Below are positions 4,526 to 33,229 of a stretch of 38,118 nt of DNA, piece after piece. A program made the position numbers and the translations under genes. The notes under the pieces are model-generated. The model searched no databases and had not been told where the DNA came from. It saw only the letters and a list, made by a program, of their open reading frames with translations. Position 1 is the stretch's first letter. Each line of letters opens with the position of its first letter. The DNA is taken from NCBI GenBank assembly GCA_028289815.1, contig JAPYNQ010000079.1, forward strand, positions 1 through 38,118, read 5' to 3'. The DNA comes from Gammaproteobacteria bacterium. Its GTDB lineage: Bacteria > Pseudomonadota > Gammaproteobacteria > JAJDYQ01.

Positions 4526-4549
4526 CGCTGTATCCTTAGTCCAGAGTGG

Positions 4550-14610: not shown

Positions 14611-16990
14611 GGCTGTTTACCTGCCGATAATGTTCGGCAAAGTGGATTCGTATCCCGTTTGCAATGTGCTTCGGCAGTTCATCAACGTCACGTCGGTTAT
14701 CTTCAGGCAGCAGTACTTCCATGATTTTACTGCGACGGGCAGCAATCAGTTTTTCGCGTATGCCGCCCACCGGCAGAATCAGGCCGGTCAATGTCAGCTC
14801 TCCAGTCATGGCCAGCGGGTATCTGATACGTTTGCCGGTTGCCAGAGAAATCAAGGCAGTTGTTATGGTGATGCCCGCACTGGGACCGTCTTTGGGTGTC
14901 GCTCCTTCGGGGACATGCAGATGAATAAAGGCTTTATCAAAGTATCTTTCGTCAATATCAAATGACTCTTTGTTGGCAGTGACAAAACTATAGGCGATTT
15001 CGGCTGACTCTTTCATCACATCGCCTAGTTGACCGGTCAATTTAAGGCCTCTCTGCTTTTTATGTACCCGTGTTGCTTCAATACTTAGTGTCGCACCGCC
15101 CATCGCTGTCCATGCCAAGCCGGTTACAATACCGATACCGCTCACTTTACGTTCCATTCTGAATATCGGTTTACCCAGGTAGTTTTCCAATTGTTTAATA
15201 CTGATGCGTATCGGAGTCTTTTTCTTTCTTACAATCTGTACGGCTGACTTGCGTATGATTTTATCCAGACACTTTTCCAGTCCTCTGACACCTGCTTCAC
15301 GGGCATAGCCCGAAATAATATGCCGAATCGCTGCATTAGTAATTTTTAGCTGGCTGGTCCTGATACCTGAGCGTACAAGCAGCTTTGGCCACAGATGTAA
15401 TTTGGCGATAGCTTCTTTTTCTTCTGCGATGTAGCCCGATAGCTTGATAATTTCCATCCTGTCTCGTAGCGGGCTGGGAATAGTATCCAACTGGTTTGCC
15501 GTGCAGACGAACAAGACCTTGGATAAATCAATCCGTACGTCTAGATAGTGATCTAGAAATTCATTATTCTGTTCAGGGTCAAGGGCCTCAAGCAGGGCTG
15601 AGGCTGGGTCACCCTGAAACGATGCACCGATTTTATCGACTTCATCCAGCATAATGACTGGGTTGGAAACGGTTGTATCCTTGATAGCTTGTACAAATTT
15701 GCCAGGCATGGCACCTATGTAGGTCCGGCGGTGACCCTTGATCTCTGCTTCATCCCTCATTCCGCCGACACTGAAGCGGTAAAATTTCCGACCTAGTGCA
15801 TCAGCAATAGATTTTCCTGTTGAGGTCTTGCCCACGCCGGGTGGTCCAACTAACAGAATGATTGAACCGCTGACTTCTCCTCTCAGCGCCCCGACACTTA
15901 TAAATTCAATAATTCTGTCCTTGACATCATCAAGGCCTTCATGGTCGCGATTGAGGGTTCTACGGGCATGGTTCAAGTCCAGTTTGTCTTTGGAATGCCG
16001 GTTCCAGGGAATAGCGGTCAGCCAGTCCAGATAGTTGCGTGTCACGGCATATTCAGGTGAACCGGTTTCCAGCACGGAAAGTTTGTTTAGTTCTTCCTGA
16101 ATAACTTTTATGGCCTGAGCCGGCACTTCCAGTCCTTCCAGGCGCTTATGGAACCTGTCCGTGTCGGCAGTGAGGTCATCTTTTGACAGACCCAGTTCTT
16201 TTTGGATTTCCCTGAGCTGCTCACGCAGAAAAAACCGCCTTTGCTGTTCCAGTATTTTTCCCTCGACCCGACTGCGGATACGGGATTGCAGGCGGCCGAC
16301 TTCCAGTTCCTGTTTCAGTAGCGAGAGCACCTTTTCCATGCGCTTGACGAGTGGAATGGTGCGCAGGATATCCAGCAGTTCATTGGTACCGGCGGCAGTC
16401 AGAATGGCGCCAAAGTCTGCCAGCGGAGAAGGCTGGTTGGGGCTGAAACGTTCCAGATGCGTTTTCAGCTCCTCTCCATACAACGGATTGAGTGGCAGCA
16501 GGTCCTTGATCATACCGATAATAGCGTTGCCATAGGCGCGCAGCTCTTTAGTGTCTTCTTCTGGTACGACCGGATATTCAACCTGTGCCATAAAGGGCCG
16601 TCTTTTGGATACCCACTTAACGATGCGAAAGCGTTCCAGCCCCTCTGCAATAAATTGTATTTTACCGTCCTCCTTTAACGGATGGTGCATACGCACAATA
16701 CTGCCCATTTCAATAAAATCCTCAAATGTGGTTGTGTCGATACCTTCTATGTCGACCATTACCAGACCAACCATATGATGGGCTGCCTCACCAATTTTTG
16801 TGACCGTCTCCAGCCAGTGTTCCTCATTCATCTGAATAGGTAATGCTTGTACCGGCAGAAATGGTCGGTCGGCAACCGGCAGGATATGAATTGTGGTGGG
16901 TAGCACTTGACCGGGGATACTCAGGTCCGAACCAGCAGCACTATCTTGCGTAGCAGCAAGCTCCGCACCTTCGGCCGTCTCTTCGTTCAT
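14597..16990 (-). CDS. lon: ATP-dependent protease Lon (LonA type)
   Basis: A 797-residue Lon. The order is: N-terminal substrate-binding domain (FLPVQALPIQM), a central coiled-coil region, an AAA+ domain with Walker A GPPGVGKT and Walker B VIMLDEVDKI, and a protease domain with the catalytic serine S704 (in PKDGPSAG) and lysine K747 (in GIREKLIAA). The 43-residue spacing matches the E. coli pair S679/K722. It degrades misfolded and regulatory proteins in the cytoplasm. GAGGA precedes the ATG by 8-9 bases. A heat-shock-type promoter candidate lies at 17021-17048. Confidence 0.97.
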   Translation of the reverse strand: MNEETAEGAELAATQDSAAGSDLSIPGQVLPTTIHILPVADRPFLPVQALPIQMNEEHWLETVTKIGEAAHHMVGLVMVDIEGIDTTTFEDFIEMGSIVRMHHPLKEDGKIQFIAEGLERFRIVKWVSKRRPFMAQVEYPVVPEEDTKELRAYGNAIIGMIKDLLPLNPLYGEELKTHLERFSPNQPSPLADFGAILTAAGTNELLDILRTIPLVKRMEKVLSLLKQELEVGRLQSRIRSRVEGKILEQQRRFFLREQLREIQKELGLSKDDLTADTDRFHKRLEGLEVPAQAIKVIQEELNKLSVLETGSPEYAVTRNYLDWLTAIPWNRHSKDKLDLNHARRTLNRDHEGLDDVKDRIIEFISVGALRGEVSGSIILLVGPPGVGKTSTGKSIADALGRKFYRFSVGGMRDEAEIKGHRRTYIGAMPGKFVQAIKDTTVSNPVIMLDEVDKIGASFQGDPASALLEALDPEQNNEFLDHYLDVRIDLSKVLFVCTANQLDTIPSPLRDRMEIIKLSGYIAEEKEAIAKLHLWPKLLVRSGIRTSQLKITNAAIRHIISGYAREAGVRGLEKCLDKIIRKSAVQIVRKKKTPIRISIKQLENYLGKPIFRMERKVSGIGIVTGLAWTAMGGATLSIEATRVHKKQRGLKLTGQLGDVMKESAEIAYSFVTANKESFDIDERYFDKAFIHLHVPEGATPKDGPSAGITITTALISLATGKRIRYPLAMTGELTLTGLILPVGGIREKLIAARRSKIMEVLLPEDNRRDVDELPKHIANGIRIHFAEHYRQVNSLAFR

Positions 16991-17020
16991 GCTGCTGTTC
17001 CTCGTTAATCAGAGAACTGT

Positions 17021-17048
17021 ATATCAGGGCACAGCTGGAAGTATCAAG
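17021..17048 (-). promoter_or_regulatory. Candidate heat-shock (sigma-32) promoter of lon
   Basis: On the minus strand CTTGATA (17042-17048) is followed after 12 bases by CCCTGATAT (17021-17029). This resembles the sigma-32 consensus CTTGAAA and CCCCATnT at normal spacing. The predicted start point is about 25 bases before the lon ATG. Heat-shock control of lon is known in enterobacteria; here it is inferred from the motif alone. Confidence 0.5.
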
Positions 17049-17049
17049 C

Positions 17050-17191
17050 CAAATACCACAGGGAACCACCTGCACAAGCTGCTGCCGCCTCTGTAATCCC
17101 TGTTTCCCCCGTCATGCTTGCTTTTGTTGCTCCCGCCGCGAAGTAAGCGGTTACAAGCTTGGGTTCCTCGGCGATATTGAGGGGCGTAGAG
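17050..17191 (+). ncRNA. Candidate small RNA or leader RNA before EF-G
   Basis: The stretch is non-coding and is closed by the terminator at 17192-17225. A small internal inverted repeat (CCTC...GAGG around 17166-17182) precedes the terminator stem. No promoter could be assigned with confidence, and no known RNA family was recognised, so the 5' end is arbitrary. Confidence 0.3.
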
Positions 17192-17225
17192 GCCTCTCCA
17201 ATGAAAATTGGAGGGGCTTTTTTTT
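17192..17225 (+). terminator. Strong intrinsic terminator with no upstream gene
   Basis: GCCTCTCCAAT (17192-17202), loop GAAA, ATTGGAGGGGC (17207-17217), then eight T. The stem is 11 bp with one G-U pair. It points along the plus strand, but the only genes upstream (lon) are on the minus strand. It therefore ends either an unannotated small RNA in 17050-17192 or a short leader transcript of EF-G, whose ATG is 120 bases further on. Confidence 0.85.
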
Positions 17226-17345
17226 ATCAGTATTGGTAGAATCGCGCACTTTTTGCGGCCGGGCATATGTTTTACTGCTACTGGTGTGCTTTTCCTTGCT
17301 AGGCCCTTGATTTTTATCCTTACAGTTTTAATCAGAGCGACCAAC

Positions 17346-19433
17346 ATGACTGACTTATCCATTTACCGCAATATCGGTATTTTCGCCCATGTGGATGCCG
17401 GCAAAACGACGACTACCGAGCGTATCCTTAAATTGACCGGGAAAATTCATCAGATCGGCGAGGTACATGATGGCGCTGCTACTACTGATTTTATGGAGCA
17501 GGAGCAAGAGCGCGGTATTACAATTCAGTCTGCTGCAACCTCCTGCATGTGGAATAAACATCGCCTGAATATCATTGATACTCCGGGGCATGTGGATTTC
17601 ACGATAGAGGTCTATCGTTCATTGAAGGTACTTGACGGTGGAATCGGAGTATTCTGCGGTTCCGGTGGTGTGGAACCCCAGTCAGAGACCAACTGGCGCT
17701 ATGCCAATGAATCTGAGGTTGCCCGTATTGTCTTCGTGAACAAGCTCGACCGTATAGGTGCGGATTTCTATCGTGTAGTCAGCCAGATTAAAGATGTGCT
17801 TGGTGCCAATCCCCTGGTGATGGCACTGCCTGTCGGCATTGAGGATCAGTTCACTGGTGCTGTTGACCTGTTGACCCGTAAGGCATGGGTCTGGGATGAC
17901 TCCGGTGACCCGATGAATTACGATATCGTTGAACCACCGGTGGACATGGCGGACAGGATTGAGCAGTATCGCGAGAAAATCATCGAAGCTGCCGTTGAGC
18001 GGGATGATGGTATCATGGAGGCTTACCTTGAAGGTAGCGAACCTGATATACCGACCATCCGTAAGCTGATTCGCAAAGGAACCATCGCATTGGATTTTTT
18101 CCCGACTTATTGTGGTTCCGCATTTAAAAACAAGGGTGTTCAACTCGTGTTGGACGCGGTTGTTGACTATCTGCCGAACCCGACTGAGGTCAAGCCCCAA
18201 CCGGAAGTTGATCTGGAGGGTAACGAGACCGGCACAATAGCAATTGTTGATCCTGATCGGTCACTGCGCGCCTTGGCGTTTAAAATTATGGACGACCGCT
18301 TCGGAGCCCTGACCTTTGTCCGCATCTACTCCGGCAGGATCAGCAAAGGCGACACCGTTTTGAATACCTTTACTGGTAAAACCGAGCGTATCGGTCGCAT
18401 GGTGGAGATGCATGCCAATTCCCGTGAGGAGCTGGAATCCGCTCAGGCCGGTGACATTATTGCAGTTGTCGGTATGAAGAATGTACAAACCGGTCATACC
18501 CTTTGTGACCCCAATAATCCGGCTACTTTAGAATCCATGGTATTCCCTGATCCGGTTATTTCTATCTCTGTTACCCCCAAAGATAAGGCATCTGTTGAGA
18601 AGATGGGTATTGCCATCAACAAAATGGTTAAGGAAGACCCCTCGTTTTATGTCGAGACCGATGAGGAAAGTGGTGAGACCATCCTCAAGGGTATGGGTGA
18701 GCTGCATCTTGATGTCAAGGTGGACATCCTCATGCGTACCTATGGTGTAGAGGTAGAAGTGGGTAAGCCTCAAGTGGCCTATCGTGAGACTATTACACAG
18801 CGTGTCGAAGACAGCTACACTCACAAGAAACAGACTGGCGGTGCCGGCCAATTTGGTAGAGTTGATTATATTGTTGAACCAGGTGAGGCAAACAGCGGTT
18901 TTCAGTTTGAATCTATAGTTACCGGAGGTAACGTGCCTCGCGAGTTTTGGCCGGCGATTGAGAAGGGTTTTCGCTCCAGCATGGAAAAAGGTACGTTGGC
19001 TGGCTATCCGCTACTGGATGTTAAAATCACCTTGGCTGACGGCGCATTCCATCCGGTTGATTCCTCTGCGGTAGCCTTTGAAATTGCGGCAAGAAATGCT
19101 TACCGTCTTACCATTCCAAAGGCTGCGCCTCAGCTGATGGAACCCGTTATGAAAGTTGATGTGTTTGTTCACGAAGATTATGTCGGCGATGTTATCGGCG
19201 ACCTGAACCGTCGTCGTGGTATCATCCGCTCTCAAGAGTCGGGTACAACAAGTGTCCGTGTGCAGGCTGATGTCCCTTTAAGCGAGATGTTCGGCTACAT
19301 CGGCGACCTGCGTACCATGACTTCTGGTCGTGGTCAGTTTTCCATGGAGTTTTCCCACTATGCGGCTTGTCCGAAAAATATTGCGGATGAGGTCATCAAG
19401 GAGACTCGGGAGCGTGGAGCTGCAAAGGCCTAG
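17346..19433 (+). CDS. fusA: Elongation factor G, stand-alone second-copy type
   Basis: A 695-residue translational GTPase. G1 AHVDAGKT is at 14-21, G2 lies in [11 protein letters not shown]3 is DTPGHVDF and G4 [10 protein letters not shown]. The later domains are complete ([11 protein letters not shown], then [17 protein letters not shown] and the C-terminal [17 protein letters not shown]). EF-G moves tRNAs and mRNA on the ribosome and helps recycling. It is not in a str operon (no rpsL, rpsG or tuf beside it), as for the second EF-G of many gammaproteobacteria such as Pseudomonas. Its motif details also resemble that second type. The ATG at 17346 opens the conserved N-terminus; upstream in-frame codons cross the terminator and are rejected. 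Confidence 0.93.
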
Positions 19434-19520
19434 GGCCGATTCTTTCTGAACATACGCAAGGGAACCCAAGGTTTGGGTAAAGGCTGATCAATGCGGCAGA
19501 GGTGAAGTCCGTCATGGTAA

Positions 19521-19539
19521 TGTCAAAAATTTTTTGACA
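19521..19539. repeat. Perfect 9-bp inverted repeat, possible operator
   Basis: TGTCAAAAA-T-TTTTTGACA lies in the 258-bp gap between the convergent EF-G gene and the DUF1641 gene. It could form an A/T-rich hairpin ending transcripts from either side, but is also shaped like a dimeric protein-binding site. A weaker hairpin without a T-run (ACCCAA-GGT-TTGGGT) is at 19464-19478. Confidence 0.45.
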
Positions 19540-19631
19540 CTACCGATATCAGTGATCTGCCATGTTTTTAGCGCAGCAGAGAAATCCGGTAGAGGAAACG
19601 GAAGATGCACGCTTGTAAAGCGCAACATTTC

Positions 19632-19650
19632 AAAGATGAGAGCATCTTTT
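19632..19650. terminator. Short A/T-flanked hairpin downstream of the thiocyanate cluster
   Basis: AAAGATG-AGAG-CATCTTTT forms a 7-bp stem with A and T flanks. It sits about 40 bases past the stop of the last gene of the thiocyanate cluster (19692, minus) and 200 bases past the EF-G stop, so it may act on both. The T-run is short, making this a modest candidate. Confidence 0.45.
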
Positions 19651-19691
19651 AGCTCAACTTGTTGTGAGGCAACTCTAACAGAGAAACAGGC

Positions 19692-20135
19692 CTAATCCCG
19701 CTTAAGACCTTTTTCGCCGCCAACATGATGAAGTTCCCGCAAGCCTTCACCCCAATATTTGCCGATAATGGATATGGCACGTAAGCCTTCCTGTGTATTT
19801 GGATCGGAAATCAGTTTAATCATGTTCCTGATACCTCCGTTGGGGGGTGGTGCTATTGCAATATCGCGGGTTATCCCGTGAATGGAATTTGCTAGGCTCA
19901 CCAGATGACATTGAACGTCGGGATGATCCAGCATTCTGAGTAGTCGCATCAGGCCTTCATTGCGTGTCAGTCGATCCAGCAGCGTTATACCCTCACTGAT
20001 TGCCCCTGCCATGCGGGCAACCATATCATCTGTCAGCGCATCTTGGGCCGCAGCAAATATTGATGCCAGTTCCGCAATTCGTTGTAGATCTTTTTCATTG
20101 ATGCCTGTGCTGGGTGTTTCCGACGAGGTAACCAT
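19692..20135 (-). CDS. DUF1641 family protein, partner of the SQR-like flavoprotein
   Basis: A 147-residue helical protein without signal or membrane segment. The DUF1641 signature is seen at the C-terminal half: LMRLLRMLDHPDVQ, then NGGIRNMIKLISDPNTQEGLRAI and YWGEGLREL. DUF1641 genes are commonly found beside sulfide:quinone-oxidoreductase-like or formate-dehydrogenase genes; the molecular role is not established. Here it follows the flavoprotein gene by 15 bp and is the last gene of the cluster, so a role with that enzyme is inferred. Confidence 0.8.
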   Translation of the reverse strand: MVTSSETPSTGINEKDLQRIAELASIFAAAQDALTDDMVARMAGAISEGITLLDRLTRNEGLMRLLRMLDHPDVQCHLVSLANSIHGITRDIAIAPPPNGGIRNMIKLISDPNTQEGLRAISIIGKYWGEGLRELHHVGGEKGLKRD

Positions 20136-20150
20136 AGCCCTTTGAATCCC

Positions 20151-21287
20151 TTATAGCAGTCCGCGGACACTGGTCCAGTACATTTTGTTATAGGACATTT
20201 TGAACCAGTGCATTGACTTGTTGGCATCTTTCAGATCTGGAGGATGATCGTAGTTAAACATGGCATATGTAGCCCGATCATGGCCAGCTTCAATAAAGCA
20301 ATATACTTTGCCATTGTACTCGGTGACCGGTGTACCGATCTTAACGATGGAAGCGATATTTTCAGCTACTACTTCGGCTTCAAAGTGAGCGGCCGAACCG
20401 GTTTTGCTCACAGGCAGATTTGTTGTGTCGCCCACCACATAGACATTATCATAACCTTCCATAGTTAGTTTATGGCGGTCGGTAGGTATCCAGCCATCAG
20501 TACCTAGGCCATTATCCTCCACCACACTCATCCCGTGATGTTCCGGGATGGAAATCAACAAGTCATATTTATATTCCGATCCCTCCATGCTTTTCATTAC
20601 CCTGCTTTCAATATCGACTTCTTCAATGTTGAACAGGGTTTCATATTCGACGCCCATGCGATCAAATTCGGGTTGTGCCCAGTTGGCGACATTTTCAATG
20701 CTGTGTATACGATTAATAGGGTAGTGATATTTGATATTTACCTTGTCGCGGATGCCGCGGTCCTTGAAAAAATCGTGCAATGAAAATACTACTTCAACTG
20801 GAGCTATTGGGCATTTATGTGGTACGCCGACCACAATACCAACATTACCGCCTTCAAATTTGCGCAGCGCCTGATACATTTTGATAGCTCCTTCCTCTGT
20901 ATAGAAGGTCTCTGCGCCTTCATCAAGGCCCGGTATCTTTTGGGGCATAATCCGGGAACCGGTTGCAATTACCATGATGTCATAATCATGTACTTTCCCA
21001 CTTCGGGTTATGACACGATTATTATCCAGTTCGAAGCCTTCCACCGAATCAACATGGAAATCAATATTGGATTCCAGCAGGCTGGCTTCATCCCGATATA
21101 GTTCATCAGGCATCATCTGACCAAAGGCGACATAAAATAGTCCGGGCTGATACATATGACGATCAGACGCCGACAGTAGCGTGATCCTGGCTTTGTGATC
21201 ACGTGTCTCCCGCACCAAGCGACGGGCAACATTGTTGGCGACAATGGTGCCGCCTGTACCGCCACCAACGATTAATATCTTCATCAT
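20151..21287 (-). CDS. Sulfide:quinone oxidoreductase-like FAD protein
   Basis: A 378-residue two-dinucleotide-fold flavoprotein. The FAD loop GGGTGGT is at 8-14, IATGSR is near 108, and the second FAD contact VYVVGDTTNLP is at 282-292. Two cysteines, C159 (in HKCPIAPVE) and C330 (in GKVYCFIEAG), sit where SQR enzymes carry their redox cysteines. The C-terminus is amphipathic and rich in W, Y and M, like the membrane anchor of SQR. It would pass electrons from sulfide or a persulfide to the quinone pool, delivering sulfane sulfur. It lies between tusA (22 bp) and DUF1641 (15 bp). AGGA fits the second of two tandem ATGs slightly better. A persulfide-processing rather than a classical SQR role is possible. 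Confidence 0.82.
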   Translation of the reverse strand: MMKILIVGGGTGGTIVANNVARRLVRETRDHKARITLLSASDRHMYQPGLFYVAFGQMMPDELYRDEASLLESNIDFHVDSVEGFELDNNRVITRSGKVHDYDIMVIATGSRIMPQKIPGLDEGAETFYTEEGAIKMYQALRKFEGGNVGIVVGVPHKCPIAPVEVVFSLHDFFKDRGIRDKVNIKYHYPINRIHSIENVANWAQPEFDRMGVEYETLFNIEEVDIESRVMKSMEGSEYKYDLLISIPEHHGMSVVEDNGLGTDGWIPTDRHKLTMEGYDNVYVVGDTTNLPVSKTGSAAHFEAEVVAENIASIVKIGTPVTEYNGKVYCFIEAGHDRATYAMFNYDHPPDLKDANKSMHWFKMSYNKMYWTSVRGLL

Positions 21288-21309
21288 ATTTTCCTGGAAA
21301 CCAATGGCA

Positions 21310-21540
21310 TTACTTCATTTTCTTTACCTGGATATGCCAAACGTCATTGACCTGTTCACTGCTGATCAATTCATGTCCTATCTTGTTAACCCACTCCGGT
21401 ACATCAACTGCCGTGCCATTGTCAGTTGACAACAATTCCAGTGTTTCACCAACTTTGGCCTGTTTCATGTAAGTAATAAGCTCCATCAACGGGCCCGGGC
21501 AATAGGTGTTACATGCGTCAATCACTTTTACATCGCTCAT
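21310..21540 (-). CDS. tusA: TusA-family sulfur carrier protein
   Basis: A 76-residue protein with the TusA fold pattern. The sulfur-binding CPGP motif is at 14-17, with C14 the expected persulfide site and a second cysteine at C10. The TDNGTAVDVPEW block follows. TusA proteins carry sulfane sulfur between enzymes. In sulfur oxidisers they work with DsrE-type proteins, which is exactly the upstream neighbour here (34 bp). Its partner in this cell may be the SQR-like enzyme or an Hdr/Dsr system elsewhere in the genome. Confidence 0.9.
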   Translation of the reverse strand: MSDVKVIDACNTYCPGPLMELITYMKQAKVGETLELLSTDNGTAVDVPEWVNKIGHELISSEQVNDVWHIQVKKMK

Positions 21541-21574
21541 TAGCCTTACACTCCTAATTTATTCCTAGTTATCC

Positions 21575-21964
21575 TTAAAAGGTAATAATCGTTCCACCTT
21601 CCGCGTCACTTAAAAATTTTGTCAATCCGGTAGGTGGACCCAGCTCATCATCCAACTCACTCTCACTAATTTCAAGCAGATCCATCGCCATTGAGCAGGG
21701 TAGTAGCTTAGCATTACCTAGCTCAACGGCCTGTTGAAATAACTGTTTAAAGGGCGGGACGCCTTTCGTTGTCAGCAGGTTACCAAAATCGCCCTCTGCG
21801 GGTGCCTTATTACTATGCCCCTTGACAAAATGCTCCAGGGCATTCATGGAAAAGAATACGGTAACGCTATCACCACTGGCGACACCAACGGATGCCACCA
21901 TGGCCGCCATTTGTAGTTTTTCATGGGTCCCTGCCGAGCAGATAATATATTTTCTGTCTGTCAC
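21575..21964 (-). CDS. DsrE-family sulfurtransferase
   Basis: A 129-residue cytoplasmic DsrE/F-fold protein. The N-terminal YIICSAGTHEKLQMAAM block and the LLPCSMAMDLL block contain C9 and C90; C90 matches the conserved sulfur-accepting cysteine of DsrE2-type proteins. The membrane helices of some DsrE2 proteins are absent. It likely exchanges sulfur with the TusA encoded next. The start is GTG (21962-21964), since no ATG fits the conserved N-terminus. It follows cbtB by about 48 bp. Confidence 0.87.
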   Translation of the reverse strand: MTDRKYIICSAGTHEKLQMAAMVASVGVASGDSVTVFFSMNALEHFVKGHSNKAPAEGDFGNLLTTKGVPPFKQLFQQAVELGNAKLLPCSMAMDLLEISESELDDELGPPTGLTKFLSDAEGGTIITF

Positions 21965-22012
21965 TTCTATCTCAGTCTGTATAAAAATATTTTCAGAAAA
22001 AGATGGCCGTGA

Positions 22013-22204
22013 CTAATGGCAGGGAAATCCCTGCGAGTGACGCGCATCATGGGTCGCATTATGTACTGCTGCGATATTCACGAAGCCTGTGCCATATAAA
22101 ATGACACTACCCAGCAATATCACACCAATGATCTGTACGGTCTTTGGCAGACTCCAGGTTGTCTGCAAAGATTCTTGGTTTAAGGTTGTGGTTTGTTCTT
22201 TCAT
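22013..22204 (-). CDS. cbtB: Cobalt transporter subunit CbtB (intact copy)
   Basis: A 63-residue protein with one membrane helix (about residues 23-45) and the metal-binding C-terminus HNATHDARHSQGFPCH, which defines CbtB. CbtAB systems are predicted cobalt importers, often under cobalamin control; here the need is probably the cobalt centre of thiocyanate hydrolase. AAGGAG is 8 bases from the ATG at 22204 but only 2 from the ATG at 22210, so the shorter form is preferred. The gene lies behind cbtA, opposite to the usual cbtB-cbtA order. A damaged second copy occupies the usual place at 23055-23254. Confidence 0.9.
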   Translation of the reverse strand: MKEQTTTLNQESLQTTWSLPKTVQIIGVILLGSVILYGTGFVNIAAVHNATHDARHSQGFPCH

Positions 22205-22236
22205 AATCATCTCTCCTTATCGTTTAATATCATCGC

Positions 22237-23031
22237 CTAAGCGGAGTAACCAGGCTTAGTATCTGTATCGGATAATCCAGCCTGTTTCATTGAAGTAATC
22301 ATGCGCTGTACTGCCCACGCAGAAGTTAAACCCAATGCCAGCCACAAGGCGACATTGGCGATTGCGGCAGCACCGATAAACTGTTGTGCCAATTGTTCAA
22401 GTGAAGCCGATACGTCGGGCGTCTGGTCTGGAAACATGGCACCAGCCGGGTGCGGTGCGCCGATAATATGCGGAACGACCAACAGCGCCGGGGCCATCCA
22501 GCGCCATGGGGATGGGGCAAGTGCCAAGCCTGTTAAGCCGCCGGCTGTACAGAGCACGGCAAATAACCACCAGATCTGCCGGTGTTCCAAGGGGGCTGCG
22601 GCCTGCAGCGGGATTTCCGGCGGTAAACCGATGGCGGGTGCCAGCCAGAATACGGCGTATCCTGTAGCACCCCATAGCAAACCTTGTTTCCAGCCAAATT
22701 TCAGGTTTCGGCCCCAAGACGTACCGCGAGTTGTTATCATCACCGCCATAAGTATTAGTGCGAAACCGATTGCTGTCAGCATGTTTGCTATTGCTGTAAA
22801 GGCCGTTCTTTGCATACCGTCGGTCGGGGCCCATCCGTCTTCTTCCGTTGCATGGTGACCATGAGCATGCAGTGCGGGAATCATGGTTTCTTCAGCTTCA
22901 GCAGCGGCACCTTCGTATTGTTCCGCTGCCAGTATTATTGGTATAACCTGAAATGTCTGAACAATCGTCAGCACTGCTCCGGATAGTATGCCAACCAGTA
23001 GTGCGTAAAATACAATTTGTCTAAATAACAT
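22237..23031 (-). CDS. cbtA: Cobalt transporter subunit CbtA
   Basis: A 264-residue membrane protein with about five to six hydrophobic segments. Residues 5-33 form the first helix. A histidine-rich loop with H55, H57, H59 and H60 follows, then WAPTDGMQRTAFTAIANML, as in CbtA. Later blocks GATGYAVFWLAPAIGLPPE and HIIGAPHP fit the family as I recall it. It should bring cobalt across the inner membrane with CbtB. It is flanked on both sides by cbtB copies and lies inside the thiocyanate cluster. Confidence 0.9.
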   Translation of the reverse strand: MLFRQIVFYALLVGILSGAVLTIVQTFQVIPIILAAEQYEGAAAEAEETMIPALHAHGHHATEEDGWAPTDGMQRTAFTAIANMLTAIGFALILMAVMITTRGTSWGRNLKFGWKQGLLWGATGYAVFWLAPAIGLPPEIPLQAAAPLEHRQIWWLFAVLCTAGGLTGLALAPSPWRWMAPALLVVPHIIGAPHPAGAMFPDQTPDVSASLEQLAQQFIGAAAIANVALWLALGLTSAWAVQRMITSMKQAGLSDTDTKPGYSA

Positions 23032-23054
23032 TTTGTAATTCTCCTGCTGTTATT

Positions 23055-23254
23055 TCAGTGACAGGGAAACCCCTGCGAGTGACGCGCATCATGCGTCGCA
23101 TTATGTACCGCTGCGATATTCACGAAGCCTGCACCGTATAAAATGACTGTTCCCAACAATAGTGCCTAACAATCTGCACTGCCCTTGGTAGGGCTGGGGC
23201 TATTGAAGGGCTGTTAATGTCTTTATCGTTTACAGATGTTGTCTGGTTTGTCAT
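23055..23254 (-). pseudogene. cbtB: Second cbtB copy, frameshifted
   Basis: Starting at ATG 23252-23254, the frame reads MTNQTTSVN...LPRAVQIV, then shifts and stops early. One base later in frame the sequence resumes as LLLGTVILYGAGFVNIAAV and ends with HNATHDARHSQGFPCH before the TGA at 23055-23057, identical in its last 16 residues to intact cbtB. Alignment with the intact copy shows one missing base just after the VQIV codons. The N-terminal part differs clearly between copies while the C-terminal 25 codons are almost the same in DNA. This is the ancestral position (cbtB before cbtA). A sequencing error is the main alternative. Confidence 0.88.
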
Positions 23255-23300
23255 GTTTTTCTCCGTAACTTGTCATACCGGGTTGTTTACTGTCCTGTTG

Positions 23301-24155
23301 CTATCTTTGATCTATGCCTCTATGCCAGCCGAATCGTTTAATCGCCAAGGCACAACTGCTATCAAGTATATATCCGATGATCCCGATCACAAGCACCATC
23401 GCGGTCAGGTGATCATAAGAAAGTGTCTCCCGAGCATCTGCAATAGAATAGCCCAGTCCTGATGTGACGCCGAGGAACTCGGCCGGAACCAGTACGATCC
23501 ACGCCACGCCCAATGCGGCACGGATACCGGTGAGGATGTCGAACAGGATCGCTGGTAAAATGATTTGTGTAAGCAAATGCCAAGGTTTAGCTCCCAGATT
23601 TTTTGCTACCTTGAACCATGCCGGATCAACTTTGGCCAGCCCGGCGGCAGTCGCAAATGCAACTGGCCAGACTGATGCTATTGCCAAGAGGAATATAATC
23701 GCTTGATTCCAGGTCACGAAAACGATAACCGCGATTGGTTCCCAAGATAACGGGCTAATCATACGCAGTAGTTGAAATGGTGAATTGCTAAGCTGGCGAA
23801 AAGTTCTGCTGACACCCAGTAAAATCCCAATCGGTATACCGCAGGCAATGGCAATGCCCAGACCAATGCTTAGTCGATAGCCGCTTGACTGGATCGCATT
23901 TTGGATTGTCTGTTCTTCCCAAAGGACAGGAAATGCCTTAAGTGTCTGTATCGGGCCAAAGTCTGCGAAATGGGTTGTCGCCGGATTTCTCTCAATCAGA
24001 TATCCACCGAGATACCACAGAGCAAACAGGATCAGTAACCCCGCAGCCCAGTTGAACAGGGTTTTGCTGAATGTCTTTAGCCTAGCAGAAGATCGTTTCT
24101 CTTCTATCTCAGCCAGAGTACCACCGGTTATCACATTGCTGTCGCCGTTGCTCAA
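23301..24155 (-). CDS. ABC transporter permease (SsuC/NrtB type), likely thiocyanate uptake
   Basis: A 284-residue inner-membrane permease of the nitrate/sulfonate/cyanate uptake family. It has about six membrane helices and the coupling-loop block (ATAAGLAKVDPAWFKVAKNLGA, then WHLLTQIILPA) that contacts the ATPase. The start is TTG at 24153-24155, sharing bases with the TGA of the binding-protein gene (TTGA overlap), so translation is coupled. With the preceding binding protein and ATPase it forms a complete importer. The substrate is inferred from context to be thiocyanate; cyanate or nitrate are related possibilities. Confidence 0.88.
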   Translation of the reverse strand: MSNGDSNVITGGTLAEIEEKRSSARLKTFSKTLFNWAAGLLILFALWYLGGYLIERNPATTHFADFGPIQTLKAFPVLWEEQTIQNAIQSSGYRLSIGLGIAIACGIPIGILLGVSRTFRQLSNSPFQLLRMISPLSWEPIAVIVFVTWNQAIIFLLAIASVWPVAFATAAGLAKVDPAWFKVAKNLGAKPWHLLTQIILPAILFDILTGIRAALGVAWIVLVPAEFLGVTSGLGYSIADARETLSYDHLTAMVLVIGIIGYILDSSCALAIKRFGWHRGIDQR

Positions 24156-25450
24156 AGCTGTACCACTTCTACACGATTGTAGGGATCATCACCCTTGGGT
24201 ACGCTTACGTCATTTCTCCATTTCGGATTTGCTTCAAGTGCTGTCTTGATGAAATCATAGTTCACCAGATCATTTGCCACATGCTCAGGTGTGAGATCTG
24301 CAAGGAATTTGTCGTCACCAGTAATCACTGTCTTTTTCAGATCATTTACCACCAGTTCTGTGGCGGAACGATAAGGCCATGCTTGGAAGTTGATGCGGTC
24401 CATACCCCACTCAGGATGTTTGATGGCTCTCGGATTGCTGTAGTAGGCTGGGTCATAAAACAGCATGGCACGCTCAACTATCTTTTTGGGGAACGGCAGG
24501 TATTTTTTGCCGTCCTTGGATAACAGCACGGCCATTTCCTGCCGATTTTCCGCCAAGGTAATCTGGGCTCTGACCACGGCATTATGGATACCCTGTGCCC
24601 AAGCCGCACGTTCAGGGTCCATGGTATTTTCTTCATGCATCACAACTACGCAGCAAGGATGGCCTTTCCATACGTCGCCGGTAAATCGTAGAACCTTACC
24701 GCGTGCCTTGATTTCTCCCAGCGCGTTAAAGGGTTCTGCTACGCAGTAGCCGTCAATCGTTCCGGCAGCCAGTGCGGGTGGCATGGATGGTGGCGGTAAC
24801 ACCAGGAAGTTGCATTCATCATCGGCCAGTTTCGCATCTTGGGGACGGATAACCGGCTTTATACCGGCATCTCTCAACAGACGCTGAGAGACTATATTGT
24901 GGATAGAGTACCAATAGGGCATGGCAAATTGCTTGCCGCCAAAGTCTGCTGGCGAGTTAATGCCGCTCTTCTCGCCTACGACGATCGCCGAACCATTGGT
25001 GTGGTCCCATGCGGTAATTTTTACCGGATAACTATTGTTATAACGCATCCAGATAGGAATCGGGATGAGCATATGCGTCAGGTTAAAGCGGTAGGATGAA
25101 AATGCTTCGACCAGAGCGGACCAGCCCCGAATCAAGGTCGGCTTGACAGAATCAATACCTTCGTCTTTCAGATATCCCAGTTCATGCGCGATCAACAACG
25201 CCGCAGAGTCGGTAATCGGGATATAGCCGATCTTGACCACCGGATCCCAAGTCTTTTGCTGTGCCCATGTTGGTTGAGGAAGACCGGCACCGAGTATGCC
25301 GCCTGCTGCCGCAGCACCAATTTTCAGGAAGTCACGCCGGTCCACTCCGGTTCCCAGTACTCCTTGGAACAGTGGATCATAATCAATGACAAGCTCCGGA
25401 TCGTTAATGCCGTCCCCGTGTTGCTTGTACATCTGTTTCATATCAGTCAT
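24152..25450 (-). CDS. ABC transporter substrate-binding protein, NrtA/CynA-like, Tat exported
   Basis: A 432-residue binding protein. After a 37-residue leader a twin-arginine signal (RRDFLKIG followed by an Ala/Gly-rich stretch) starts at R38; such long leaders are usual for NrtA-type proteins. The mature part opens with VKIGYIPITDSAALLIAHELG and contains MLIPIPIWMRYNN and GTIDGYCVAEPFN, as in NrtA/CmpA-like proteins that bind small anions. A strong GGAGGTAGGA ribosome site precedes the ATG. Thiocyanate is the probable ligand from its place behind scnBAC; this is inference. Confidence 0.9.
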   Translation of the reverse strand: MTDMKQMYKQHGDGINDPELVIDYDPLFQGVLGTGVDRRDFLKIGAAAAGGILGAGLPQPTWAQQKTWDPVVKIGYIPITDSAALLIAHELGYLKDEGIDSVKPTLIRGWSALVEAFSSYRFNLTHMLIPIPIWMRYNNSYPVKITAWDHTNGSAIVVGEKSGINSPADFGGKQFAMPYWYSIHNIVSQRLLRDAGIKPVIRPQDAKLADDECNFLVLPPPSMPPALAAGTIDGYCVAEPFNALGEIKARGKVLRFTGDVWKGHPCCVVVMHEENTMDPERAAWAQGIHNAVVRAQITLAENRQEMAVLLSKDGKKYLPFPKKIVERAMLFYDPAYYSNPRAIKHPEWGMDRINFQAWPYRSATELVVNDLKKTVITGDDKFLADLTPEHVANDLVNYDFIKTALEANPKWRNDVSVPKGDDPYNRVEVVQL

Positions 25451-25508
25451 TTTTTCCTACCTCCAGTAGTCAATTAAACCTGAATTACAATACTCCTACC
25501 CAAGTGTC

Positions 25509-26342
25509 CTATGTGATACCAGCCAGATTGGCTTCGGACATGGCTCCATCATACTTTTCTGCAATTGAGTCGCCGCTTAATGCCCCATTTACCGCATCTT
25601 GAAAAATCTGCATAAGGTGTGCACGTTTATCCTGCACTACTTGATCTTCCCGGTTACGTGGGTCGGGAAGGTCAACCATCAAATCGTGCATAATTTTTCC
25701 GGGAGAACCGGCCATAACCAGTGTACGGTCGGCCATCAGTACGGCCTCGTCAATATCGTGGGTTACCATGACCAAGTTGATTCCGAGTTTTTTGGAAATG
25801 GATCGAACATCTTTTTGCAGCGCAGCCCGAGTGAACGCATCCAGTGCCGAGAATGGTTCGTCCAGCAACAGTATTTCCGGTTCCATAACCAGTGAACGCG
25901 CAAGAGCCACACGCTGTTGCTGACCGCCGGACAAGTCCTGTGTATTGTTTCGTGCATACTCTTCCATGTGTACCAGATGTATGGTTTCGGCGACACGTTC
26001 TCTGATCTTTTCTTTCGGCCAGCCAGCAAAGTGCAGTCCTACGCCAACATTGTGTTCAACTGTCATCCATGGAAACAGGTGCGGCGCCTGAAACATCATC
26101 ACCCAGCGCGAAGATGGTTTTTTTACATCTTCCTTATCCAGCTTCAGTGTGCCGGAATATCCATCCAGCAGACCAGCGATGATATGTAGCAGTGTTGACT
26201 TACCACAACCTGATCGGCCAATAATGACGAGTGATTCACCGGGGCTAGCCTGGATGTTGACATCCTCAAAAGTCAGTGGATTCTTCGGTGTATATCGGTG
26301 CGCCAAGCCCCGTATATCGATTTCCACACCCCGGATTGCCAT
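25509..26342 (-). CDS. ABC transporter ATP-binding protein (SsuB/NrtD type)
   Basis: A 277-residue ATPase. Walker A (GRSGCGKST) is at 42-50, the Q-loop in MMFQAPHLF near 85, the signature LSGGQQQ at 138-144 and Walker B ILLLDEP at 157-163, with the H-loop in VMVTHDIDEAV. All are intact. It powers the importer formed with the two following genes. It comes 94 bp after the maturation-protein gene, the largest gap in this part of the cluster; no terminator is seen there. Confidence 0.92.
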   Translation of the reverse strand: MAIRGVEIDIRGLAHRYTPKNPLTFEDVNIQASPGESLVIIGRSGCGKSTLLHIIAGLLDGYSGTLKLDKEDVKKPSSRWVMMFQAPHLFPWMTVEHNVGVGLHFAGWPKEKIRERVAETIHLVHMEEYARNNTQDLSGGQQQRVALARSLVMEPEILLLDEPFSALDAFTRAALQKDVRSISKKLGINLVMVTHDIDEAVLMADRTLVMAGSPGKIMHDLMVDLPDPRNREDQVVQDKRAHLMQIFQDAVNGALSGDSIAEKYDGAMSEANLAGIT

Positions 26343-26436
26343 TGTCTACTCCCTCCTGCCCAAGTCGGTGTATTTTTTGTATTTTCCTGTCGATTTTGCT
26401 TTCATTGATTGACCTATCTTCAGTTAACGGCACGGC

Positions 26437-26931
26437 TTAACCGGTTTCGGTGTTACTTATTTGTTCTTCCTGGTAAATTCCGTCCACCATATTTAAGCGG
26501 TCACTTACTTTTTTCAGCTGTACGGCCAATTCTCTTTCACCAAAGAGTCCTCGGCGAATCATAGTATGGGCCAGCGCCAGTAGCTGCCTTTCGGGGAATG
26601 GCACATCGGTGTATAACTCATTGGTCAGCTGGTCTTCTTCCCAGCGACGTTCAACGGCATCAACTTTCTTGTTACTCGGTTCTTCACGCTGGTCGACTGG
26701 CCGGCAGATGTTGAGCGGGCCATTGTGACCATATGCAAGGTTGTCGCAGGTGCTCTCCAAGTTGATGCGCCAAGGTGGGTCGGGATTATCCACTCCATAC
26801 TCTGCACTGAGATCTTTCCAAGTTCTGCCTTTCCGCCGGATGCGCTCCAGCAATTCAATCGGTGAGTTGTCCAGATTCTTGCCGGACATCTCCTTATCAA
26901 GTGCGACGTAGTCAGGGTTAGTCTCAGCCAT
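26437..26931 (-). CDS. Thiocyanate hydrolase maturation protein (P15K-like)
   Basis: A 164-residue acidic soluble protein. Its C-terminal half (FPERQLLALAHTMIRRGLFGERELAVQLKKVSDRL) has the pattern of the N-terminal domain of nitrile hydratase beta subunits, as do known nitrile hydratase and thiocyanate hydrolase activators. Its place 17 bp after scnC matches that of the P15K activator gene in Thiobacillus thioparus, which helps insert cobalt and oxidise the cysteine ligands. It is somewhat longer than a 15-kDa protein. AGGA stands 9 bases before the ATG. The function is assigned by context plus weak similarity. Confidence 0.75.
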   Translation of the reverse strand: MAETNPDYVALDKEMSGKNLDNSPIELLERIRRKGRTWKDLSAEYGVDNPDPPWRINLESTCDNLAYGHNGPLNICRPVDQREEPSNKKVDAVERRWEEDQLTNELYTDVPFPERQLLALAHTMIRRGLFGERELAVQLKKVSDRLNMVDGIYQEEQISNTETG

Positions 26932-26948
26932 GCGGGGGGTTCCTGCTA

Positions 26949-27656
26949 TCAGTGGTGATAAGGATTAACGGCGCGTCGTACAGGGCGTTTGCGGTTTGCC
27001 GTCACGCTTGGTTTTGGTACGGCGACACCTATTAGGCAGTCGCGAGTAACAATCTCGGCAAGCTGATCTTCGCTCCATCCTTCCGTGCCTTCAGGCCTGA
27101 CCGGCAGAACGATAAACCTGGATTTTTGGTTGGAGTCCTCGACCCGAACTTCAATATCCTCCGGCAATTGCAAGCCGAATTCAGCGAGCACTTGGCGTGG
27201 CCATCGTACTATTCGGCGACGGTAGTTTGGCGTACGATACCATTCTGGCGATTGCCCAAGAATAGGACGTGGATAGCAGGAACAAAGTGTGCATACTACG
27301 ACATGCTTTAGCTTGGGAGTGTCTTCCAAAACCCGCAGGTTGCAGTAATCACTGGGAGTTCCAAAGTTGGTGGGCATGCTGTTGATCCAGTCGATGCCAA
27401 CATCCAGACTGGCTTTGACACCGTCATTAACCGCCAGTTTCTTGAATTCGGGGTCCAGCCATGCTTTTGCCACCAAGCGAGCAGCGGGCGCAGGGCCCAG
27501 TGTATGCATGTACTCCGTCCAGCGATTATGGTCCTCTTTGGTAAACAGTCCTTTTTCAATTGCCAGTTCACGCACAGCCAATTCTAGGACTTCGAATTCA
27601 CTGACCTCATCAACCATGGGTGCCGGCGAGTGTAGATCATGTTTATCATCAGACAT
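26949..27656 (-). CDS. scnC: Thiocyanate hydrolase gamma subunit, cobalt-binding
   Basis: A 235-residue homologue of nitrile hydratase alpha subunits. The metal centre CTLCSC is present with C122, C125 and C127; the threonine form is typical of cobalt rather than iron enzymes. Other family blocks are LGPAPAARLVAKAWLDPEFK, WYRTPNYRRRIVRWPR and LPVRPEGTEGWSEDQLAEIV. The enzyme converts thiocyanate and water to carbonyl sulfide and ammonia in the cytoplasm. Separate small genes for the two halves of the beta subunit (scnB, scnA) upstream distinguish this from an ordinary nitrile hydratase. Confidence 0.93.
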   Translation of the reverse strand: MSDDKHDLHSPAPMVDEVSEFEVLELAVRELAIEKGLFTKEDHNRWTEYMHTLGPAPAARLVAKAWLDPEFKKLAVNDGVKASLDVGIDWINSMPTNFGTPSDYCNLRVLEDTPKLKHVVVCTLCSCYPRPILGQSPEWYRTPNYRRRIVRWPRQVLAEFGLQLPEDIEVRVEDSNQKSRFIVLPVRPEGTEGWSEDQLAEIVTRDCLIGVAVPKPSVTANRKRPVRRAVNPYHH

Positions 27657-27711
27657 TGTTGCTACCTCTCTTGCTCGTTATTGCCTTCTTATGCGGATAC
27701 GGACGCAACCT

Positions 27712-28080
27712 TCAGGCCGCCTCCAGATAGTGTTCGGGTATTTCCGTTTCGACTGTGTCATTGGGGAAATAGTCAGGATAGTCTGGCCACAGGTCAGCCA
27801 TTTTGAATACTAGGCTGTAAAACCATTCAACATTTTCGGTGTTATCCCATGATTCATCTTCTGCAGGTGGGCTTTCATAAACCAGTTCGGCAACCACCGC
27901 TTCGGCACCTCTCACGTAACCTTGGGTGCGGGTATAAAATATATCTGGTAAATTCCGGACACGTACTCTGTCGCCTACCTTAAATCTGGGTTTACCCGCC
28001 TCTCCCTTAAAGCATTGCGGGTCACCGATGTCAGTGGCTTTCTCGACATGATGATTTCTGTCGTAATGTGGCTTACTCAT
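27712..28080 (-). CDS. scnA: Thiocyanate hydrolase alpha subunit
   Basis: A 122-residue protein corresponding to the C-terminal, SH3-like half of nitrile hydratase beta: FKVGDRVRVRNLPDIFYTRTQGYVRG, then VEWFYSLVFKMADLWPDY. It packs against the gamma subunit around the cobalt centre. The gene overlaps the end of scnB by 8 bases and precedes scnC by 55 bp. Length is close to the 126 residues I recall for the T. thioparus protein. Confidence 0.92.
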   Translation of the reverse strand: MSKPHYDRNHHVEKATDIGDPQCFKGEAGKPRFKVGDRVRVRNLPDIFYTRTQGYVRGAEAVVAELVYESPPAEDESWDNTENVEWFYSLVFKMADLWPDYPDYFPNDTVETEIPEHYLEAA

Positions 28081-28504
28081 AGCGTTTTCTCACCTCATCC
28101 ATTTTTTCTTGAAGCTCTGTGAGCGTAATAAATTGCTTATCCACCAAGATTTTGGCTGCTGTTAGCAACCAGCGACCGTAGTAAGGTAAACCCAGATACA
28201 TGGTCTCGCCGACTTCGACGTTTTGGCGACGACGTCTTTCTTCTGCATTCCATACGCCGCGCCAAGCAAGAACCTCGCAGGTTACAAAAGTATTATGTTC
28301 CCAAACCTCTTCTTCTTTCTCTTCCCAAGTGATGGGAATATCGGGCTCGCCGCCAATATCATGGGGGGATCGAGTATAGGCACGGAAATGTGCATTATCG
28401 ATCATGTCAGGAGAAGGTGCATGAGTCTCCTGATGCAGGGCAGGTTGTATCTGTCTGCAGATGTCCAAGTGCCGATGGACTTTATCTCGAATAGACGATG
28501 GCAT
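28073..28504 (-). CDS. scnB: Thiocyanate hydrolase beta subunit
   Basis: A 143-residue protein corresponding to the N-terminal half of nitrile hydratase beta. SPHDIGGEPDIPITWEEKEE carries the HDIGG signature, followed by TFVTCEVLAWRGVWNAEERRRR and a helical C-terminus. It is the first gene of the 8.8-kb minus-strand cluster. GAGGAG lies about 9-11 bases before the ATG at 28502-28504, and the leader is short. It overlaps scnA by 8 bases, so the two are translationally coupled. Confidence 0.92.
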   Translation of the reverse strand: MPSSIRDKVHRHLDICRQIQPALHQETHAPSPDMIDNAHFRAYTRSPHDIGGEPDIPITWEEKEEEVWEHNTFVTCEVLAWRGVWNAEERRRRQNVEVGETMYLGLPYYGRWLLTAAKILVDKQFITLTELQEKMDEVRKRYE

Positions 28505-28540
28505 AGTCCTAAACTCCTCTTTAATACGACAAGCGAAACT

Positions 28541-28546
28541 AGTATA
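28541..28546 (-). promoter_or_regulatory. Candidate -10 box of the scn operon
   Basis: TATACT on the minus strand, about 37 bases upstream of the scnB ATG. No good -35 hexamer is seen 16-18 bp above it, which is what an activator-dependent promoter would look like. The inverted repeats at 28575-28590 and 28594-28608 lie upstream of it, in a suitable place for a LysR-type activator. Confidence 0.45.
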
Positions 28547-28574
28547 TAGTTGCTAAAATTAACTCTACTACTCG

Positions 28575-28608
28575 GAAATTTTAAGATTTCAGCCTTTGAT
28601 TATCAAAG
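28575..28608. promoter_or_regulatory. Candidate LysR-type operator pair
   Basis: Two inverted repeats sit side by side in the divergent gap: GAAAT-TTTAAG-ATTTC (28575-28590) and the perfect CTTTGAT-T-ATCAAAG (28594-28608). Their size suits the T-N11-A type sites of LysR proteins. The second covers the -35 box of the regulator gene, as expected for self-repression. Confidence 0.55.
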
Positions 28609-28624
28609 ACTGTTTTCCTATAAT
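28596..28624 (+). promoter_or_regulatory. Promoter of the LysR-type regulator gene
   Basis: TTGATT (28596-28601), a 17-bp spacer, and a perfect TATAAT (28619-28624). Transcription should start near 28631, about 11 bases before the ATG at 28642. Confidence 0.7.
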
Positions 28625-28641
28625 GTTTATAGGCACAGCTT

Positions 28642-29631
28642 ATGAAGCGCAGAGTTGTATTTCCCAGATCCCTGCAATACCTGATGGCTATCGTTGAGTG
28701 CGGAAGCTATACCAAGGCTGCGGAAGCGTTGCATGTCTCTCAGCCTAGTTTATCTCAACAAATCAAGCAACTGGAAGAATCACTGCAGTCACCTTTGCTG
28801 GTCCGAACAGGTCGAGCTGTGCGTCTGACAGATGTCGGCGAAGTTTATCTACACCATGCTAAACGCGCCTACGGAGAGCTTGATGCTGGTACCCGTGCCA
28901 TCCATGATGTTCAGGACCTGAGTCGGGGTTCGCTCTGCTTGGGTTGGACCCCGATTACAGATTACCTCGCCTGCTCTTTGCTGGAACGTTTTAGTCGTCT
29001 GTATCCGGGTATTATGCTGAATACGCTTGAGATGTCGGCAGATAATATTGAAATCGCCGTGACCGAAGACCGTATTGATATCGGTATCGCGTTCAGCCCT
29101 GTAACGTTGGCCACTCCCCGGGTATCCGGTATTGAGGTCAGGCAGCTGTTTAAAGAGTCACTCTGTTTTGCGGTTGGTAATAGCCACCTTTGTGCAGGGC
29201 AGAAAGAACGTATGAGTGTGCAGGAATTTAACAAGGAATCCTTGGTGCTTCTGAACTCTAATTTTGCCTTGCGACGCCAGATTAACACCTACTGTACCGA
29301 ACAAGGCATCATGCCACGCATTGCGATTGAAACCGATTCGCTGAGCGTGATTATTGAGATGGTCCAGCATAGTCCATATGGTACGGTACTGCCCAAAAGC
29401 ATTATCCAAGCCCAATGTGGCATTTACCCGATTGTATTGGCACCCGCCGTGCCCGCGCAGGCCGTAACCCTGATTACCCGAAACCATGGTTATAGCAGTG
29501 CGGCTTCTATTGCTTTCTCCAGATTGGCGATGGATTGGGCGGTTGACCAGATCACGTCACTTAGAAACGATAAATCCGGGTACTGTCCGTTATCAGGTAG
29601 TCATCGCTGCAGCAAAAAACAGCTGTCCTGA
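28642..29631 (+). CDS. CynR-like LysR-family regulator of the thiocyanate cluster
   Basis: A 329-residue LysR-type protein. The winged helix-turn-helix is at about 8-65 (GSYTKAAEALHVSQPSLSQQIKQLEES). The blocks GRAVRLTDVGEVYLHHA, RAIHDVQDLSRGSL and LEMSADNIEIAVTEDRIDIG follow E. coli CynR closely as I recall it (CynR responds to cyanate). It is transcribed divergently from scnB across a 137-bp gap with paired inverted repeats, so it probably activates scnB onward in response to thiocyanate, cyanate or a product. The ligand cannot be read from the sequence. The C-terminal tail after the effector domain is long and serine-rich. Confidence 0.88.
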   Translation: MKRRVVFPRSLQYLMAIVECGSYTKAAEALHVSQPSLSQQIKQLEESLQSPLLVRTGRAVRLTDVGEVYLHHAKRAYGELDAGTRAIHDVQDLSRGSLCLGWTPITDYLACSLLERFSRLYPGIMLNTLEMSADNIEIAVTEDRIDIGIAFSPVTLATPRVSGIEVRQLFKESLCFAVGNSHLCAGQKERMSVQEFNKESLVLLNSNFALRRQINTYCTEQGIMPRIAIETDSLSVIIEMVQHSPYGTVLPKSIIQAQCGIYPIVLAPAVPAQAVTLITRNHGYSSAASIAFSRLAMDWAVDQITSLRNDKSGYCPLSGSHRCSKKQLS

Positions 29632-29786
29632 TTAGCCGCTCATTCGGTTGGTTAGTATGGAATTGGTGGTGTTCGGTCACCCGGCTAGGCAGCTTCACTG
29701 GGTTGTATATCCGGTACCTTCGCTTGTCGCCCGGAGCAGGCGCCTGCGCTATTCACATCGGTCGGGTTTTGGGATATCATTCGGTG

Positions 29787-30149
29787 ATGGATAGTACCCA
29801 ACAGTCGCTGCTCGACTTTTTCAGACGCATTGCTCTGAGAGATACTGTGCAGATTGAGTCCATACGAAAACATGTGGGCTTTACGCTTAAGGATAATCAG
29901 TGGTTATTTCGGCTTTCCGCTCTGCATCATTACCTGCAACAGCTCAGCCCGCCGGGGTATGTTGTCATTGACTATCCTAGCTTCCGGAAACTGCTATACG
30001 GCATACCGATTAATGAGAACATAAGGCCTCTCGGAGCTGAGATCATTATTGCCGATAATCAGGGCAGGGTCGATTATTCGACTTATGCTTTGGTATGGAA
30101 AGTGCCATACAGATGTTGTACGGAAAATTTAAGATGGCGCGGTATTTAA
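29787..30149 (+). CDS. Small protein of unknown function
   Basis: About 120 residues from the ATG at 29787; the frame is open further upstream to 29703 but without a better start. I recognise no domain. No signal peptide or membrane helix is seen; the centre (YVVIDYPSFRKLLYGIPINE) looks like a folded domain. It overlaps the start region of the next gene, suggesting a shared transcript. It could be the C-terminal part of something, since the N-terminus is unclear. A perfect 12-bp palindrome (GCAGGCGCCTGC, 29736-29747) lies just upstream. Confidence 0.5.
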   Translation: MDSTQQSLLDFFRRIALRDTVQIESIRKHVGFTLKDNQWLFRLSALHHYLQQLSPPGYVVIDYPSFRKLLYGIPINENIRPLGAEIIIADNQGRVDYSTYALVWKVPYRCCTENLRWRGI

Positions 30150-30535
30150 GCCATGCGGCCCTTATAGTTGGTTCGGCGCTGGCCTGTGTGTCGGATGCCG
30201 CCGGTAACTCATGGCAAACCATAAGCGGCAAGTACTTTGCTGTTTCCTACCAAAGTCAGACTGTTCCGTTACCACTAAATCGGATACATAGTTGGCAGAC
30301 TACAATAAAGACGGTTGATGATGGCAGGCCTGTGGAAGGCGCTGTGGTAAAGATATATGGAGGCATGCCGGCCCATCGCCACGGGCTACCGACACAGCCA
30401 AGGACGACGGAAGTTGGTAATGGCAGATACCTTATCAGGGGTCTTAAGTTCAGTATGATGGGGGACTGGGAAGTCTGGTTGGATGTTACGTATGGTAGTC
30501 TCAGCGAGAAGCTTGTCTTCAAGCTCAGTCTTTGA
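30134..30535 (+). CDS. Secreted FixH/YtkA-like protein
   Basis: About 133 residues from ATG 30134 with a signal peptide (MARYLSHAALIVGSALACVS, cleavage probably near DAAG). The remainder has an immunoglobulin-like beta pattern: HSWQTTIKTVDDGRPVEGA, VKIYGGMPAHRHGLPT and MMGDWEVWLDVTY. Proteins of the FixH/YtkA-like group are often encoded beside haem or copper proteins; the MPAHRHG block could bind metal. A longer start at 30095 would put 13 residues before the signal peptide and is less likely. The next gene, 54 bp on, encodes a di-haem peroxidase. Confidence 0.7.
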   Translation: MARYLSHAALIVGSALACVSDAAGNSWQTISGKYFAVSYQSQTVPLPLNRIHSWQTTIKTVDDGRPVEGAVVKIYGGMPAHRHGLPTQPRTTEVGNGRYLIRGLKFSMMGDWEVWLDVTYGSLSEKLVFKLSL

Positions 30536-30589
30536 GTCAGTGTTAACAGACTTGAACTGTCGGCCCGGCATAGCGGTCCTTTTTTCATC

Positions 30590-31903: not shown

Positions 31904-31906
31904 TGC

Positions 31907-32359: not shown

Positions 32360-32364
32360 GTCGA

Positions 32365-33079: not shown

Positions 33080-33229
33080 ATATTCCACTGAACAGCGTGA
33101 TGGGTTTACACAGCCGGCGATGCCATTCGATCAGCATGAGAAATACTATGGTCGATTCCCTGAAAGAACTGTACTGTTAATGTGGCTTTGGTCTATCTTT
33201 GCTGCAGTTGATAAACGTGGAGAGGCGGA

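Follow-up and report, generated by a model that had tools for sequence, protein, structure and literature searches.

A cbtB-cbtA-cbtB cassette in a thiocyanate hydrolase gene cluster: near-identical cbtB tails and a one-base frameshift in the assembled upstream copy

CbtAB systems are mostly linked with vitamin B12 synthesis. In their usual order cbtB lies directly upstream of cbtA, which is not a strict requirement, and a cobalamin riboswitch close to the operon is common without being strictly defining. Thiocyanate hydrolase is said, after Arakawa et al. 2007, to be a cobalt enzyme. The protein families CbtA (PF09490) and CbtB (PF09489) were predicted as a cobalt transporter (PMC2667541), and in Methylococcus an apparent cobalt toxicity was relieved by knock-down of cbtB (PMC13108547). 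A described case of paralogs within one operon, in which gene conversion homogenised a single domain, is that of methanogen mtrA-1 and mtrA-2 (PMC4632066).

The locus analyzed here lies in a window of 38,118 nt, i.e. the whole stretch of DNA under study, from a draft genome of 89 contigs (G000). With the predicted CbtAB transporter it shares both families, each far above the Pfam cut-off, and a cbtB directly upstream of cbtA, whereas it differs by a second cbtB directly downstream, by the frameshift in one of the copies and by its setting among thiocyanate hydrolase (scn) genes. It also resembles the scn loci of Thiobacillus thioparus and Tv. thiocyanodenitrificans, for which the excerpted part of PMC5328954 lists scn, a NitT/TauT-like ABC transporter, DsrE-like, TusA, SQR and a hypothetical protein in a similar order and places cobalt uptake genes close by; unlike here, differing cobalt uptake systems are reported at scn loci in this part of the source, and a double cbtB is unmentioned in it. 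As in mtrA-1/mtrA-2, an old duplicate in one operon has one part that is homogenised within genomes and another that stayed distinct, although the tract found here is far shorter, clear signs of recent conversion are confined to one genome and one of the copies is broken. No description of a double cbtB was found in the literature searched.

Layout of the cassette and its setting

As outlined in Table 1, cbtA is flanked on both sides by cbtB copies and all three genes are on the minus strand, in agreement with the earlier note, which had placed two cbtB genes around cbtA. The cbtB directly upstream of cbtA, i.e. the one in the usual order, is the frameshifted copy in the assembly (cbtB1), and the intact one follows directly downstream (cbtB2). 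CbtA covers PF09490 over its full length (profile positions 1-239 of 239; 151.3 bits versus a cut-off of 30.7). PF09489, with a cut-off of 27, is matched by both CbtB copies, i.e. by cbtB2 with 70.6 bits and by the tail of cbtB1 with 64.7 bits and one in-frame TAG at its edge, and both carry the His-rich tail ending in FPCH. For cbtB2, whose stop lies at 22013, the ATG start at 22204 agrees with the relatives, and an alternative in-frame ATG is located earlier, at 22210. A third cbtB was not found in the draft genome, and a search of positions 15000-34000 against Rfam gave no match, neither to a cobalamin riboswitch nor to another RNA element within the cassette or around it.

Table 1. Coordinates of the features of the cassette and the surrounding cluster in the window.
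Feature	Position	Strand	Basis
cbtB2, intact CbtB, downstream of cbtA	22013-22204	-	PF09489, E 1.2e-19; ribosome-binding site AAGGAG upstream; synteny with relatives
cbtA, predicted cobalt transporter membrane subunit	22237-23031	-	PF09490, E 5.4e-44
cbtB1, CbtB gene one base out of frame, with preserved start and ribosome-binding site	23055-23254	-	position intact in 7 other genomes
position of the cbtB1 frameshift; after ...VQIV of the start frame, the CbtB tail follows at net -1	23165-23170	-	
cbtB1 tail, 24 codons, part of probable gene conversion tract (may extend to about 23147)	23058-23129	-	19/24 codons same as cbtB2
cbtB2 tail, 24 codons, partner of probable conversion tract (may extend to about 22105)	22016-22087	-	
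ABC importer, probably for thiocyanate	23301-26342	-	Pfam and synteny
ABC importer permease	23301-24155	-	Pfam, synteny
ABC importer NMT1-like binding protein	24152-25450	-	Pfam, synteny
ABC importer ATPase	25509-26342	-	Pfam, synteny
scnC, thiocyanate hydrolase gamma subunit (cobalt site)	26949-27656	-	PF02979, E 2.4e-71; subunit name by place in known scn locus
dsrE-like	21575-21964	-	Pfam
tusA-like	21310-21540	-	reading and synteny
SQR-like	20151-21287	-	reading and synteny
DUF1641-like	19692-20135	-	reading and synteny

The scnC product is an alpha chain of the nitrile hydratase family, which fits the gamma subunit of thiocyanate hydrolase. Judging from these genes, the window comprises the cluster of this cobalt enzyme and the host is predicted to degrade thiocyanate. 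Since thiocyanate hydrolase is reportedly a cobalt enzyme, a cobalt importer would fit the scn locus, and the enzyme would then be the destination of the imported cobalt.

A LysR-type regulator (28642-29631) is divergent from the scn genes and has a counterpart in G002 (L037:1574-2581); by reading, it is a candidate thiocyanate regulator. In two further genomes, G632 (L109) and G633 (L110), dsrE-tusA-SQR follow almost directly after scnC, and the ABC importer and CbtAB are absent there. In G558 (L104:468-1764) the alignment of the binding-protein gene from the thiocyanate cluster falls into two overlapping parts that lie in different frames, which hints at a frameshift or an assembly error in another draft.

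History of the two cbtB copies

The order permease-cbtB-cbtA-cbtB-dsrE-tusA-SQR was observed in G000 and, at the same spot between permease and dsrE, in seven other genomes (G002, G298, G371, G325, G056, G562 and G558; G562 is the JANQLO record, the same genome, and was counted once), both copies being intact in all except G000. These eight genomes span five families of the class. With respect to the gene order, both cbtB sites are older than the G000 species, because the cassette occupies the same spot in the seven other genomes, and the duplication accordingly predates the species. In the sample of the class CbtB was matched in 25 of 369 genomes and twice in only five, all of which carry scn genes. 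The only cbtB in the scn clusters of G310 and G619 lies upstream of cbtA, and insofar the upstream position was rightly called the ancestral place in the earlier note. Three scn-bearing genomes (G349, G125 and G634) lack a CbtB between permease and dsrE, so that CbtAB is not essential to the thiocyanate system. In G194 the downstream cbtB is cut off by the end of the contig (L075:9001-9143), so that its upstream partner is not visible. The plasmid-borne relatives of CbtA (83 records, all below 60% identity) were uninformative.

It had furthermore been suggested that the function moved to the downstream copy. This is unsupported: the downstream cbtB is an old syntenic member of the cassette, so no relocation is needed, and at most the upstream copy was recently lost in G000. 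A related explanation, according to which the downstream cbtB arose by a recent duplication and assumed the function once the upstream copy had broken, could draw on tails that are more alike than expected; a recent local duplication is, however, rejected by the synteny with the seven other genomes and has the high divergence of the 5' parts against it, which makes this explanation extremely improbable.

The C-terminal tails of cbtB1 and cbtB2 are identical over 24 residues (GFVNIAAVHNATHDARHSQGFPCH), and not over 16 as previously described; tail peptides by which the copies can be told apart are ALLLGTVILYGAG... in cbtB1 and VILLGSVILYGTG... in cbtB2. DNA identity amounts to 93% over the 72 bases of the tail versus 72% over the preceding 36 bases (12 codons), and the N-terminal parts are highly diverged, which bears out the reported strong difference of the 5' halves. 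All five differences within the tail are synonymous. With synonymous codons drawn by the window's own usage, 9.5 of the 24 tail codons would on average be the same by chance, compared to 19 observed in G000 (P about 3e-5) and 9-14 in the pairs of five other genomes. Likewise, the synonymous difference of the tails is 0.31 within G000 versus 0.57-0.89 within the pairs of other genomes (five genomes). An excess of synonymous identity between the paralogs is thus present in G000, whereas the other seven cassette genomes show it weakly or not at all.

The earlier note had named conversion or strong constraint on the metal-binding tail as the cause of this likeness. Constraint is real family-wide, since the CbtB tail is invariant or nearly so across genomes, and outside G000 the likeness within genomes is clear in the amino acids and weak at third positions (0.36-0.61), a pattern that co-adaptation to one CbtA could also give. 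As the sole cause of the G000 tails, constraint is nevertheless improbable: amino-acid constraint leaves synonymous sites unprotected, the codon identity in G000 exceeds both the codon-usage null and every other pair, and the residues T and A in HNATHDARH, which are found in G000 only, are common to both of its copies. From these comparisons, recent partial gene conversion between the tails of cbtB1 and cbtB2 appears well supported and is the simplest account of their identity, with a probable tract of only 72-90 bases.

The wider history of the copies was derived from trees and clade tests which rest on 108 columns. CbtB copies group by genome and not by position, the G000 copies form a pair (94/93), and the topologies with all upstream or all downstream copies in one clade were rejected (p 0.007 and p 0.015, respectively). 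The amino-acid likeness was 0.87 within genomes versus 0.76 between genomes at the same position (permutation P 6/40320, eight genomes). Outside G000, older conversion and co-adaptation to the common CbtA cannot be told apart, because the likeness at third positions is weak there.

The frameshift in the upstream copy

The start frame of cbtB1 (MTNQ...AVQIV) reads 44 residues up to a stop (MTNQTTSVNDKDINSPSIAPALPRAVQIV), and the CbtB tail ALLLGTVILYGAGFVNIAAVHNATHDARHSQGFPCH is encoded in the -1 frame (36 residues, 23055-23165). The loss of one base after the VQIV codons, as proposed earlier, was therefore confirmed in the assembly by the reading frames; the site has no homopolymer. Compared to the relatives, the frameshift is the only feature peculiar to the G000 species, and the broken copy would be derived here. 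No further decay of cbtB1 was observed, its ribosome-binding site, start, tail and amino-acid constraint being preserved, and its branch in the tree (0.092) is shorter than that of cbtB2 (0.18), i.e. the branch of the broken copy is not lengthened. Since, in addition, the tail differences are exclusively synonymous, the lesion is either young or an error of the draft assembly.

With respect to the 89 contigs of the draft, a single-base indel may be an error, and an error of sequencing or assembly, with both cbtB genes intact as in seven out of seven other cassette genomes, would also account for the preserved state of cbtB1. We regard this as a possible but not the favored explanation, as the lesion lacks a homopolymer and no frame break shows in the alignment of the other cluster genes searched with those of relatives; nor is a collapsed repeat likely, because the longest exact run common to both tails comprises 23 bases, which is less than the usual assembly words. 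An expression of cbtB1 despite the lesion, yielding full or tail-only CbtB via ribosomal -1 frameshifting or an internal restart, would be in line with the purely synonymous codon differences of the tail and with a TTG a few bases behind AGG just past the lesion. Programmed frameshifting is unlikely, however, as an in-phase slippery heptamer X XXY YYZ was not found, and a restart at the TTG is possible and has no support; such a layout is seen in no relative, a simpler explanation of the constraint is that the lesion is recent, and we consider continued expression highly improbable.

Overall, the locus holds a conserved variation on a known transporter, with a minor lesion in it. Probably, an old cbtB-cbtA-cbtB cassette of the scn cluster underwent a recent conversion of the tails, followed by the loss of a base in cbtB1 of G000. 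In this reading, the thiocyanate hydrolase cluster would possess a dedicated CbtAB-type predicted cobalt importer; its cbtA lies between two cbtB genes, the old duplication of which is common to several families of the class, and the two CbtB copies retain distinct N-termini next to nearly the same transmembrane and His-rich tail. In G000 the 3' part of one cbtB would recently have been overwritten by the other, and through the later loss of a base from the upstream cbtB, cbtB2 would have become the sole full-length CbtB. Only tentatively, the cassette may be seen as a distinct importer variant dedicated to thiocyanate hydrolase, with two CbtB proteins of different N-termini and a common metal-binding tail per CbtA, from which G000 might be midway in its return to a single CbtB.

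The association of a doubled cbtB with a non-corrin cobalt enzyme provides a natural starting point for studying the role of CbtB and the CbtB:CbtA copy number. Furthermore, the G000 tails provide a small and clear example of gene conversion between adjoining genes of an operon, and short paralogous genes in draft genomes call for caution.

Elsewhere in the window, positions 33230-34459 encode a permease-like membrane protein with a C-terminal HMA-like metal-binding motif (GMSCQHC), and positions 1748-7618 hold an apparent type III restriction-modification pair, as judged by reading the translations.
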